36,767 nucleotides of DNA from Deltaproteobacteria bacterium. Its GTDB lineage: Bacteria > Desulfobacterota > Desulfomonilia > UBA1062. The stretch's first letter is position 1, and each line of letters starts with the position of its first letter. The stretch is taken from NCBI GenBank assembly GCA_011046135.1, contig DSBG01000125.1:1-36767 (forward strand), given 5' to 3'. The translations under genes were made by a program, and so were the position numbers. This document shows, piece after piece, positions 3,120 through 36,450 of this stretch. The notes beneath the pieces are model-generated. The model was not told where the DNA came from. It saw nothing but the letters and a program-made list of their open reading frames with translations, and ran no database searches.

Positions 3120-3983
3120 ATGATGAGAAAAATCAAGTGGTTTCTTGGTATTATTTTCGTGATTGGCATATTTGTCTGGGGAGTTCAGGCACTCCAGACC
3201 GTCATGACCCCTGCCATCGGCGTGCTGGAGATCGAGGGATCAATCCATGATTCCGTAGGTTATCTGAAAGGCATCAAAGCTCTCGAAGAGAACGATCAGA
3301 TAAAAGCAATTCTCGTCCGTATCGATAGCCCGGGAGGAAAGGTCGGGCCGTCTCAGGAGATCTACGGATCCCTTCTAAAGATCAAAGGGAAAAAGCCTCT
3401 GGTAGTCTCCATGGGATCGGTGAGTGCATCCGGTGGGTATTATATCGCCTGCGCAGCTGACACCATCTTTGCACTGCCTGGGACCCTCACCGGAAGCATC
3501 GGTGTGATCCTTGAATTTCTGGATATCAGCGAAGGCCTGGAAAAAATCGGCGTAAAGTCTGAGCGGGTTGTCAGCGGGGATATGAAAGAGTCCGGGTCTC
3601 CTTTCAAAACGTTGACAGACAGGGAACGGGAGTATTTCCTGCGGCTCGTCGAGGATGTGCATGAGCAGTTTGTGGAAGCTGTTGCCCTCAGCAGGGAACT
3701 TCCTGTTGAAACTGTGCAGGAATTCGCTGATGGCCGGGTGTTCACTGGAAGGCAGGCCATGGAGCTGGGCCTTGTTGACAGGCTCGGCGGTCTCGAGGAC
3801 GCAATCACAGAGGTCAAGGAGAAGGCGGGGATTGTGGGGAAGGTGCGTTTCATCAGGCCCGAGATCTCAACCGGAATTCTGGAGACCATCAGAAAGGCCC
3901 TCGGTGTTCTCACCCCCCGTGAGTTCGGTGCCACCGCACGGGTATCTGGACGCCTCATTCGTCTCGAATACAGCATTGATTGA
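3120..3983 (+). CDS. sppA: Signal peptide peptidase SppA, short (36K) type
   Basis: Membrane-anchored serine protease that degrades signal peptides left in the membrane after secretion. The protein has about 287 residues, typical of the short bacterial form. Residues 1-25 form one hydrophobic anchor ([16 protein letters not shown]). The ClpP-like core follows with [14 protein letters not shown], then [15 protein letters not shown] with the nucleophile Ser, and the region after [14 protein letters not shown] carrying the likely catalytic Lys. The open frame extends upstream to TTG 3084, overlapping the exchanger stop, but the hydrophobic anchor begins at ATG 3120/3123, just after AGAAGG, so that start is preferred. 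guaB follows 10 bases downstream. Confidence 0.92.
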
Positions 3984-32568: not shown

Positions 32569-33732
32569 ATGGGGATTCTTTCCAATACCGTGAGCCTGTT
32601 CCAGTACCGATTACACGGGGTGCGCCCGGAGGGAGACTTTGAGGCATGGATCGGTCGGCAGCTGATGAAGAACCAGTTTATGGGAATCGATAAAACAGCA
32701 GAGGAATCCTCCACGGGCTGGGTTGTGTTCGACAATCACCAGAGTTCGGATTTCACGGATCCCACCACCTTTGTGCGCGATCACTACCTTGTGTTCAGCC
32801 TGCGAAGAGACCAGAGAAAGGTCCCTTCCACGCTGGTGAAAAATCTGCTCTTGGCCGAATGCGACAAGTGGCTTTCTGAGAGACCCGCTATATCCCGGGT
32901 TCCGTCCAGAAGAAGGCTCGAGATGAAAGAGAACATCCACGCATCGCTCATTGCCCGCAGTCTTCCGGTGCCTTCCTCCTGGGATGTGGTCTGGGACACG
33001 AGATCCGATGTGGTGAGCATCACCAGTATCAGTGCCAGGGCCCTTGATCTCATCGAGGATGAAGTCAGCCGAACCTTCGAGGGTTTTCTGCTGGAGCCCA
33101 TTCATCCCATCAGTCGGGCAGAGGCCGTTCTGGTCAAGAGCCTTCACGGGGCTCTGGAAAGGGCCAACCAGGCCCCATCAAAAGATGTGCTTCTCCAGAT
33201 CAAGAAGAATCGATGGCTTGGATGGGAGTTTCTCCTGTGGCTCATGTACCGGACGAGCGCGGGAGTGTCGACGTACGAGGTGACCCAGGATGGCCCAGCC
33301 GAGAGAGATGAGCGATTTCTCAGCTACCTCCACGATCGGTTTGTCCTGTGCTCCGAGGGAGAGGACGGTATCCGCAAGAGTTCCATCATCGGTCCACAGA
33401 GAGATTTTGCCGAGGCGAGAAGGGCCATTCAGGACGGAAAGAACATTACCGAAGCACTCCTTTACTTTGAAAAAGATTCCATGAAGTGGAAGATATCTCT
33501 GAAGGCAGATCTGTTCGCCTTTGGATCCTTTACCTGCCCTCCGGTAACCATCGAGCGCGATGAGATCACGGACCCAATCCAGGAACGGGAGGCGGTATTC
33601 TTCGAGCGCATGAACCTCATCGAGACGGGGCTTCAGCTTTTCGAAAGCGTCTACGCTGCATTCTTGTCCCAGCGGCTGCAGGGCGGGTGGCAGGACACGC
33701 ACAGAGAGATCAGTGCATGGTTGAATCAGTGA
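32569..33732 (+). CDS. rdgC: RdgC-like recombination-associated protein
   Basis: Probable DNA-binding protein of 387 residues that in E. coli forms a ring on DNA and restrains RecA. The N-terminal half aligns in layout with RdgC: LFQYRLHGV at the start, STGWVVFDNH, LVFSLRRDQRKVPSTLVKNLLLAE, then RRLEMKENIHASLIARSLPVPSSWDVVWDTRSDVV-type core (KENIHASLIARSLP, VVWDTRSDVVSI). The protein is about 80 residues longer than E. coli RdgC and the C-terminal half is divergent. ATG 32569 is chosen because GAGGAGGACACC precedes it; the frame upstream to 32542 is not needed. The kinase gene follows after 103 bases holding two small hairpins. Confidence 0.75.
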   Translation: MGILSNTVSLFQYRLHGVRPEGDFEAWIGRQLMKNQFMGIDKTAEESSTGWVVFDNHQSSDFTDPTTFVRDHYLVFSLRRDQRKVPSTLVKNLLLAECDKWLSERPAISRVPSRRRLEMKENIHASLIARSLPVPSSWDVVWDTRSDVVSITSISARALDLIEDEVSRTFEGFLLEPIHPISRAEAVLVKSLHGALERANQAPSKDVLLQIKKNRWLGWEFLLWLMYRTSAGVSTYEVTQDGPAERDERFLSYLHDRFVLCSEGEDGIRKSSIIGPQRDFAEARRAIQDGKNITEALLYFEKDSMKWKISLKADLFAFGSFTCPPVTIERDEITDPIQEREAVFFERMNLIETGLQLFESVYAAFLSQRLQGGWQDTHREISAWLNQ

Positions 33733-33810
33733 GCCGGCATCGACAAGCTGCCATGAAGCGATGGGGAGATGTACACGTTTCTCCAGGGTTTCGTGCCCTG
33801 TGCAGGGGAA

Positions 33811-33826
33811 CCACTGAGAGCAGTGG
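33811..33826 (+). promoter_or_regulatory. Hairpin overlapping the kinase ribosome binding site
   Basis: CCACTG (33811-33816) and CAGTGG (33821-33826) are perfect inverted repeats with an AGAG loop. The 3' arm shares GG with the GGAG ribosome site (33825-33828) that serves GTG 33836. A second stem CAGGG/CCCTG lies just upstream (33784-33800). Together they could limit translation. Confidence 0.45.
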
Positions 33827-33835
33827 AGCACTGAC

Positions 33836-34492
33836 GTGAAGATCTTCATCATCGTCGGCATGCCTGCCTCAGGGAAGAATATTGCCAGGATGTACGCTCA
33901 ATCGAAGGGCATGCCCTACTACTCCACGGGAGATATCGTTCGAGAAGAGATCAGGAACAGGGGACTCGAGGAAGATGCAGTGACTACTGCACGGGTATCT
34001 GATGAACTCAGGAACCCTGACGGCATGGGGGTTACCCGCAGGGCACTGTCTCGGGCCCTCGAACATCACGAGACTGGGGTGTTTCTCGAGGAGATGCGAT
34101 CCTGGCAGGAGGTTGAACTCATAAGACAGCATGCTCCGACTGTTGTCGTTGCATTCCTGGCTCCCCGGGAAACGAGACGAGAGAGGGTGCTCCACAGGGC
34201 TCGTGCAGACGATTCGGCTGATGCCTTTGACGAGCGTGACATGCGGGAGATCGCCTATGGAACCGCCATACCCATTGCGCGCGCAGATACGTATATCATG
34301 AACACCGGGAGTCTCGATGATGGCCGTACAGCACTCGATGCCATCGTGGGAGATCACCTGGGAGCAGGTGATCTCCCACGAAACCGTTCACAAGGGGGGG
34401 GTCGTATCCTTCCTGGAAGATTCGTCTTTCTCATGCTGAACAAGGCAACTCGAAGGATCGAGCTATCACTTCATGGGAATGAACTCCTCTGA
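33836..34492 (+). CDS. UPF0200-like P-loop nucleotide kinase with atypical C-terminal tail
   Basis: Probable small-molecule or nucleotide kinase of 218 residues. Walker A is GMPASGKN (8-15), followed by STGDIVREEIRNRGL, RVSDELRNPDGMGVTRRAL, a LAPRETRRERVLHRARADD lid region and ADTYIMNTGSLDD near residue 150-162. This resembles the archaeal UPF0200 family related to dephospho-CoA and adenylate kinases. The domain ends near residue 176; the last 42 residues (GAGDLPRNRSQGGG onwards) look unlike the family. They begin within a perfect 16-bp inverted repeat and run into the 3' end of the opposite gene. The start is GTG 33836 with GGAG 7 bases upstream. Enzymatic substrate unknown. Confidence 0.75.
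   Translation: MKIFIIVGMPASGKNIARMYAQSKGMPYYSTGDIVREEIRNRGLEEDAVTTARVSDELRNPDGMGVTRRALSRALEHHETGVFLEEMRSWQEVELIRQHAPTVVVAFLAPRETRRERVLHRARADDSADAFDERDMREIAYGTAIPIARADTYIMNTGSLDDGRTALDAIVGDHLGAGDLPRNRSQGGGRILPGRFVFLMLNKATRRIELSLHGNELL
34344..34381. repeat. Perfect 16-bp inverted repeat inside the kinase gene
   Basis: TCGTGGGAGATCACCT (34344-34359) and AGGTGATCTCCCACGA (34366-34381) are exact reverse complements around a 6-base GGGAGC loop. It is the longest perfect hairpin I found in the window. It lies where the recognisable kinase domain ends. There is no T run after it on either strand, so it is not a standard terminator. Confidence 0.95.
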
Positions 34493-35464
34493 TCTCACCT
34501 CAATCAGGGAGATGGCCGCCACGGGGCAGAGGGTTGCACACAGACCGCATCCGATGCAGGTTTCAGCTTCGACCAGGGCCACCTCGCCTCGACTCATACT
34601 GATTGAGCCCACCGGGCAGATGTCAACACACACCTCGCACGCAGTACAGTCTTCTTCGTTCACTGTGGCCCGGTAACGGCTGGGCGCAAGCACTCCCTTT
34701 GTCCTGGAATCCGTTGCAAAACGCAGCATCTCGCAGCAGCAGGTACAGCAGTTGCAGATGACATTGGATTTTCCCCCGATGTTTTCGGTAAGGTGAACGA
34801 GGCCAGAGGCTTGAGCGTCCTTCAGGATCTGTTTCGCCTCCTCGATACCGATCGCTCTGCCGGTCCCCCTCTTGAGGTTGTACTCTGCTCCCTTGTTGAT
34901 CTGGATGCAGTTTTCAATGGCATTCTCGCATTTTTTTAAAAGCTTCCTGCACACGCAGGTGGTCACCGCTATAGTGGAAGCGTTTTCCAGGAGCTGGAGA
35001 GCGTCTTCATAGGCGAGAACCTGATTTTTTGTCGCTAAGGTTTCGTTTATGGGGATGACCCGCATGAAGGCAGGCATCCTGATCTGGGTGACGAGCTCCA
35101 GGAGCCGGGGATAATCCGTCTCGCCGAACTCTATCCAGAGGTCCATCATCTCCTGCGGAGCCTCATCCCACAGGATTGTCGCGTCATGGAACTGGACCAC
35201 ATGGCGGGGCATGCGGTAATGGGTGGCACCATCTCGCACATAGTCAAACACCACGCCACGGTGATAGAGATTTTCCAGGAGGGACTGCATCTCCTCCTGG
35301 GGTTTCGCGAATCTCGAAGCAAGATCCTCTGCGGTTGCAGGCAGCGCGTTGATGATTTCCGCTTCCTCGAGAGAGCAGATGGAATTCCAGATCTCCGGAA
35401 GGATCGATGAGTGCTCCATCATGAGCTTTTTCGATAATTCTCTGTACACATCTTGCTGGGTCAT
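34466..35464 (-). CDS. Cysteine-rich 4Fe-4S protein with N-terminal helical domain
   Basis: Cytosolic protein of 332 residues. The C-terminus is a bacterial 2[4Fe-4S] ferredoxin domain: CTACEVCVDICPVG (273-286) and CIGCGLCATLCPVA (303-316). A central cysteine set has CVCRKLLKKC...C (Cys170, 172, 179, 186) and the dense cluster CNCCTCCC (237-244), probably another metal site. Residues 30-90 look like a winged-helix module (EIINALPATAEDLASRFAKP, NLYHRGVVFDYVRDG). This suggests an electron-transfer or redox-sensing protein, partner unknown. AAGGAGGTGAGC precedes ATG 35464, so the longer frame to 35524 is rejected. Its 3' end overlaps the convergent kinase gene by 27 bases. Confidence 0.85.
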   Translation of the reverse strand: MTQQDVYRELSKKLMMEHSSILPEIWNSICSLEEAEIINALPATAEDLASRFAKPQEEMQSLLENLYHRGVVFDYVRDGATHYRMPRHVVQFHDATILWDEAPQEMMDLWIEFGETDYPRLLELVTQIRMPAFMRVIPINETLATKNQVLAYEDALQLLENASTIAVTTCVCRKLLKKCENAIENCIQINKGAEYNLKRGTGRAIGIEEAKQILKDAQASGLVHLTENIGGKSNVICNCCTCCCEMLRFATDSRTKGVLAPSRYRATVNEEDCTACEVCVDICPVGSISMSRGEVALVEAETCIGCGLCATLCPVAAISLIEVRSEEFIPMK

Positions 35465-35571
35465 GCTCACCTCCTTATTAGTAGGGGTATAGTAGCTTTT
35501 CAGTATGGTGAAAGGCAACTCCATTCATCGGGCATACGTAACCGGGAGCAGGAACACTGACTGGAGGGGGA

Positions 35572-36450
35572 ATGGCTATGACTCATCTCTATTCCCATGA
35601 AGATATCAGGAGTACGTATGAACCTATCGATGACCACCGTCAAACCAGTCAGCTCATCCAGCGGTATGCGGCCAATGCACGCGACATCAGGGAGGTGGCT
35701 CTCGAAGGGCTCCGTCTCACGGGCTACACCAGGGTCATCGATCTTGGCTGCGGGTATGGATTCTTCACCGAAAAGCTCAGGGACAGGCTCGCTCCATCAG
35801 CGACCATTGTCGGTGTCGATGTGGTCAATGCCGCAAACAGGCAGTCCTTCGAGGAGACCGTCTCAGCCCTCGGCTACGGTGTCGAGTACATTCATGGCAG
35901 CGCAGATCTCATCACGGAGATGGATGATGCCTGCTGGGACCTCGTTGTGGCGAGTTATTCCCTGTACTTCTTTCCCCACCTGATTCCACAGATATCCCGT
36001 ATCTTGCGCCCCGGTGGTATATTCATCGCGCTCACCCACAGCAGGCACTCGCTGAAAGAAGCCATTTCTTTGGTGCCGGGCTGCATGAAGATTTCGGGTC
36101 TTGATCCCCCGGGAGAACTCAGGATAAACAGACTCTTTGAAGCATTTTCTCTCGAGGGAGGTTATGAGCAGTTGCGCGGACATTTCGCCAGGATCGAGCG
36201 GATCGTGTACGAGAACACCCTGACATTCCCGCATGATCAGATCCGTGACTGTATTAAGTATTTCGACAAGAAGAGGCACCTGATTTTCAAAGAGGTGATG
36301 GAGGCCTACCCCTACAAGGTGGAAGAGGTTCTTTCTCGCTTCAACCGCGCAATCAGCGAACAGTCACAGATCAACGGCAAGGTGACGATCACGAAAGACG
36401 ATGCTGTGTTCCGCTGTTCCCATTCGGGACAGGGAGTGATGCAGCCATGA
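35572..36450 (+). CDS. Class I SAM-dependent methyltransferase
   Basis: Methyltransferase of 292 residues with unknown substrate. Motif I is VIDLGCGYGFFTEKL (about 54-68), the acidic ribose-binding residue is in ATIVGVDVVN, motif post-II is DLVVASYSLYFFPHL, and ILRPGGIFIALTHS is motif III. The C-terminal 90 residues carry a helical cap (RIVYENTLTFPHDQIRDCIKYFDKKRHL). GGAGGGGG lies 4-10 bases before ATG 35572 and ATG 35578; either may start. Its stop overlaps the NUDIX gene start (ATGA), so the two are coupled. It is divergent from the iron-sulfur gene across about 107 bases. Confidence 0.9.
   Translation: MAMTHLYSHEDIRSTYEPIDDHRQTSQLIQRYAANARDIREVALEGLRLTGYTRVIDLGCGYGFFTEKLRDRLAPSATIVGVDVVNAANRQSFEETVSALGYGVEYIHGSADLITEMDDACWDLVVASYSLYFFPHLIPQISRILRPGGIFIALTHSRHSLKEAISLVPGCMKISGLDPPGELRINRLFEAFSLEGGYEQLRGHFARIERIVYENTLTFPHDQIRDCIKYFDKKRHLIFKEVMEAYPYKVEEVLSRFNRAISEQSQINGKVTITKDDAVFRCSHSGQGVMQP

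Follow-up and report, generated by a model that had tools for sequence, protein, structure and literature searches.

A perfect inverted repeat occupies positions 34344-34381 of the 36,767-nucleotide stretch of DNA analysed here, from an uncultured deltaproteobacterium of Syntrophales type (contig DSBG01000125.1; hereafter the window), where it forms a 17-bp stem with 17/17 complementarity around a GGAG loop at the end of a nucleotide kinase gene. The frame of this kinase stays open through the hairpin and reaches 218 residues, ~41 beyond the family end, before it closes inside a convergent iron-sulfur (Fe-S) gene. The hairpin is unique in its genome, and both it and the tail are absent from the relatives compared. 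The account tentatively preferred here is that a local inverted copy quite possibly made the hairpin and removed the kinase stop codon, leaving the frame to overrun by chance, and that the hairpin probably serves as a U-less 3'-end structure mainly for the Fe-S transcript. The hairpin itself is real and statistically striking, yet an ordinary feature, and taken together the case resembles a local mutation within a familiar class of gene-end hairpin more than it does a new system.

The left arm (TCGTGGGAGATCACCTG; 34344-34360, + strand) lies within the codons for the I-V-G-D-H-L stretch that closes the kinase domain, and is followed by the loop (34361-34364, +) and by a right arm (CAGGTGATCTCCCACGA; 34365-34381, +) that is its exact reverse complement. 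An earlier note on this DNA had described a 16-bp hairpin with a 6-base loop, which is the same structure minus its innermost pair. The stem is GC-rich and stable, with a fold energy of -34.0 / -32.5 kcal/mol, and the RNA of the surrounding 151 nt (34330-34480) folds with a z-score of -4.1 on the + strand and -4.2 on the - strand. Elsewhere in the window, the longest exact inverted repeat with a loop of 3-12 measures 9 bp. Rank and statistics for the genome derive from 0.80 Mb sampled by regions (27% of the genome), among which this hairpin is the longest exact short-loop repeat, the runner-up having 15 bp and a 14-nt loop. On base composition, arms of at least 17 with loops of 3-20 are expected by chance 4e-5 times per window, or ~0.0035 times per genome.

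The kinase ORF (33836-34492, +) begins with a GTG start and encodes 218 aa, of which residues 1-177 (33836-34366, +) constitute a P-loop nucleotide kinase domain of the AAA_17 / adenylate-kinase-like type (Pfam AAA_17, E 3e-11), the full family length in relatives. The gene had previously been read as a UPF0200-like kinase; the kinase assignment stands, and no UPF0200-named model is among the matches. Eleven same-family homologues (58-64% identity) end at about 174-183 residues, and ~40 further bacterial kinase loci, partly from the same genomes as the 11, end at 173-188 aa. The earlier claim of a non-family tail of ~40 residues past the hairpin is therefore borne out, and the window tail, sought in the 11 homologues and ~40 loci, is common to none of them. 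A Thermoplasmata MAG (L063) carries a kinase that reaches 216 residues with an unrelated tail. The comparison of homologue ends, proposed along with that claim, also fixes the hairpin relative to the family. The conserved ...LDAIV aligns to the first codons of the left arm; the last family helix spans residues 160-175 in the AlphaFold model, with its end encoded by the left arm; and the right arm starts about where relatives carry their stop codon. Among these relatives, neither a conserved tail lacking the hairpin nor a repeat kept as ordinary codons was found, the two observations that the earlier note had named as contrary to its view.

The sequence past the hairpin has little of the character of a gene. 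The rest of the overrun frame (34382-34489, +; residues 183-218) scores as non-coding-like, contains a run of eight G (34394-34401, +) and is closed by a TGA (34490-34492, +) that lies inside the Fe-S gene. Residues 178-218 have a codon score of -0.03, whereas coding chunks average 0.18 and open intergenic ones 0.00; the value is typical of open intergenic sequence and would rank in the bottom 4% of coding chunks. The GC3 of the tail is 0.44 versus 0.66 for genes. From residue 177 to the end, AlphaFold assigns a pLDDT below 50 almost throughout. The frame remains open for 36 codons past the right arm, which has a chance of ~0.18 at the local GC, and selection is therefore not needed as an explanation. 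For annotation, the 218-aa product probably bears ~40 residues of read-through sequence and should be treated with caution.

The convergent gene (34466-35524, -) encodes a 352-aa protein with two C-terminal 4Fe-4S binding stretches (Fer4, E 3e-13). ORF coordinates confirm that the kinase frame crosses 27 bp of this gene, as had been noted. The end of the Fe-S protein (...EVRSEEFIPMK) resembles that of its relatives (...EVRPPDFIPA), and thus the overlap is due to the kinase frame alone. Fe-S homologues are convergent with the kinase in eight relatives, with gaps of 1-202 nt and one at 700. On the - strand the hairpin arm begins 84 nt past the Fe-S stop codon and is untranslated there; accordingly, the hairpin can serve the Fe-S transcript. 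It may act as a U-less RNA 3'-end structure, most plausibly for that transcript, for which it provides a stable stem past the stop codon. The same cannot be said of the kinase, whose reading frame has not yet closed where the hairpin lies. A function in the kinase mRNA is less likely since translating ribosomes would open the stem, and a 3' end at this point would yield a stop-less message. Of the earlier suggestion that a transcript-end structure serves both genes, the Fe-S half is thus plausible and the kinase half less so.

As a terminator, the hairpin does not take the canonical intrinsic (Rho-independent) form. It shares with that form a stable GC-rich hairpin at a gene end, but lacks the T-rich tract: no T-run lies beside the stem on either strand (flanks AACCGTTCAC on + and TGGCATCGAG on -), and no terminator-like site was found in 33700-35700. 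Two forms of U-less gene-end hairpin have been described, namely I-shaped terminators and the GC-rich U-less stems to which transcripts are trimmed back after Rho termination (PMC13289151, PMC8269248). The window hairpin resembles these in its long GC-rich stem, short loop, position at convergent gene ends and want of a U-tract on either strand, and Rho is encoded in the genome; it differs in having one arm within coding sequence, that of a gene with no stop codon ahead of the hairpin. Hairpins of this kind are usual here: of 19 gene-hairpin pairs no more than 120 nt apart, 16 lack a T-tract and 3 have one. In the 0.80 Mb sample, exact hairpins of at least 9 bp peak 0-60 nt past stop codons, where two 30-nt bins hold 16 of them and the other bins 0-4 each, gene positions having been taken from a simple longest-ORF caller so that a few counted neighbours may be spurious ORFs. 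Other long perfect hairpins just past stop codons in this genome, at 3503-3535 of L143, 3791-3825 of L138 and 13756-13785 of L130, mostly lack T-tracts as well, a wider gene-end hairpin habit.

The preferred account of origin supposes that the ancestral kinase gene stopped near codon 178, like all bacterial relatives, and that its last coding bases were then copied in inverted orientation just downstream, by a replication template switch or palindrome correction. Such a copy would have eliminated the stop codon and left a perfect 17-bp hairpin spanning the gene end; the frame would then continue through what was once intergenic sequence until it met a fortuitous TGA, 27 bp into the Fe-S gene. 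At the RNA level, the hairpin would form an exonuclease barrier after Rho-type termination, mainly of the Fe-S transcript. The right arm is taken as the probable copy since the left arm codes for the end of the family's last helix, while the right one begins only at the point where relatives have ended; both this direction of copying and the loss of the stop codon in the same event are deduced from the arrangement of the sequence. Perfect stems can arise by template switching in one event (PMC8794818), and a single switch would jointly explain the perfect stem, its restriction to one lineage and the missing stop codon. Template-switch or quasipalindrome mutations (PMC8794818, PMC7202029) likewise present a perfect repeat with a short spacer in one lineage and an apparent reverse-complement copy of adjoining sequence, although in the present case the switch points cannot be reconstructed as the ancestor is unseen. 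The near-perfect repeat, the short spacer and the absence from relatives are all observed, the nearest relatives being ~60-67% identical. The earlier idea of a small insertion that removed the stop codon is compatible with these data and, if taken as a local inverted copy, is the preferred option, given the position of the right arm at the relatives' stop and the non-coding-like tail. Two points count against this account: the distance from the Fe-S stop codon to the hairpin (84 nt) exceeds that of most gene-end hairpins here, and a point change or indel independent of the copying could account for the loss of the kinase stop. Should the origin be as proposed, it would represent a clear bacterial case in which one local mutation yields both a perfect gene-end hairpin and a lengthened neighbouring frame.

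An ordinary selected hairpin of the convergent junction, perfected gradually by compensatory change, is the next explanation to be weighed, with the kinase stop lost separately and the overrun incidental. This genome does put strong hairpins past stop codons, some of them in convergent gaps, and the kinase/Fe-S gaps of relatives are of the size given above. Additionally, a distant homologue (L032, ~3500-3600) bears its own near-perfect hairpin, GGGGATATAACACCAATT / AATTGGTGTTATGTCCCC, with 18-nt arms and one mismatch, the left arm of which contains the kinase stop codon. Its sequence is unrelated to that of the window, and as a single-copy element it was ruled out as a REP element. Among 41 relatives folded at this gene end, L032 alone approaches the window (z -4.1 vs -5.1), and exact inverted repeats of more than 8 bp at the kinase end are found in none of the 11 homologues and ~40 bacterial loci. 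The L032 case is mild evidence that hairpins at the end of this gene are either put to use repeatedly or prone to arise by mutation. Against gradual selection, one arm of the window hairpin lies within kinase-domain codons, a placement for which the sample holds just one hairpin of at least 9 bp whose centre falls within the 30 nt upstream of a stop codon, and the arms are perfect, which gradual change does not require. This explanation is judged rather unlikely, while still deserving consideration.

Less probable again is that the gain or loss of a single base near the gene end, whether genuine or introduced in assembly, hides the true stop codon. The first stop in frame +2 is an out-of-frame TGA within the right arm (34369-34371, +), and an extra base upstream would bring it into frame, giving a protein of ~178 aa, the family length; the genome is moreover a draft of 181 contigs. 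However, the protein can be aligned in frame as far as residue ~171, which leaves some 20 bases for the indel, and a stop in one of the two other frames at this point is not improbable by chance. The 8-G run lies 3' of the hairpin and is hence irrelevant.

That the palindrome is a DNA-level site, whether an operator, a recombination site or a mobile or repeat element, is very unlikely. Its length and perfection would suit such a site, but a search of the genome for other copies, as the earlier note had advised, returned no second one, so that a mobile or repeated element, part of the recombination or regulatory element once suggested, is not supported; the multiple genomic copies that define REP or mobile palindromic elements are lacking. 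The 17-nt arm has as many near neighbours as random genomic 17-mers, and an apparent excess of 3-mismatch arm matches over a reversed control vanished against such 17-mers. An Rfam search of the window gave a tRNA elsewhere as its sole match and none at the hairpin, and the position between two gene ends is away from gene starts. Similarly improbable, and slightly more so, is that the tail is a genuine C-terminal extension peculiar to this lineage, the hairpin then being either incidental or an influence on how the extension is translated: the 36 open codons past the right arm speak for it, but a run of that length can arise by chance, and the codon score, the low pLDDT and the absence of the tail from all relatives compared speak against it. 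Finally, it is scarcely credible that the kinase transcript ends at the hairpin, ahead of any stop codon, in which case most of the kinase would come from stop-less messages and its amount would be controlled by ribosome rescue and tagging.

Upstream of the kinase, the ORF at 32542-33732 matches RdgC (Pfam E 1e-8) over approximately residues 38-199 only, far under NCBIfam cut-offs. Almost all of the closest relatives of the kinase itself come from deltaproteobacterial MAGs, with Syntrophaceae and Smithella frequent among their names, and archaeal homologues, mostly from Methanosarcinales, are found at about 31-40% identity. The family is distributed chiefly over Syntrophales-type bacteria and archaea that are methanogenic (Methanosarcinales and others), a pattern that gene exchange between syntrophic partners might explain.
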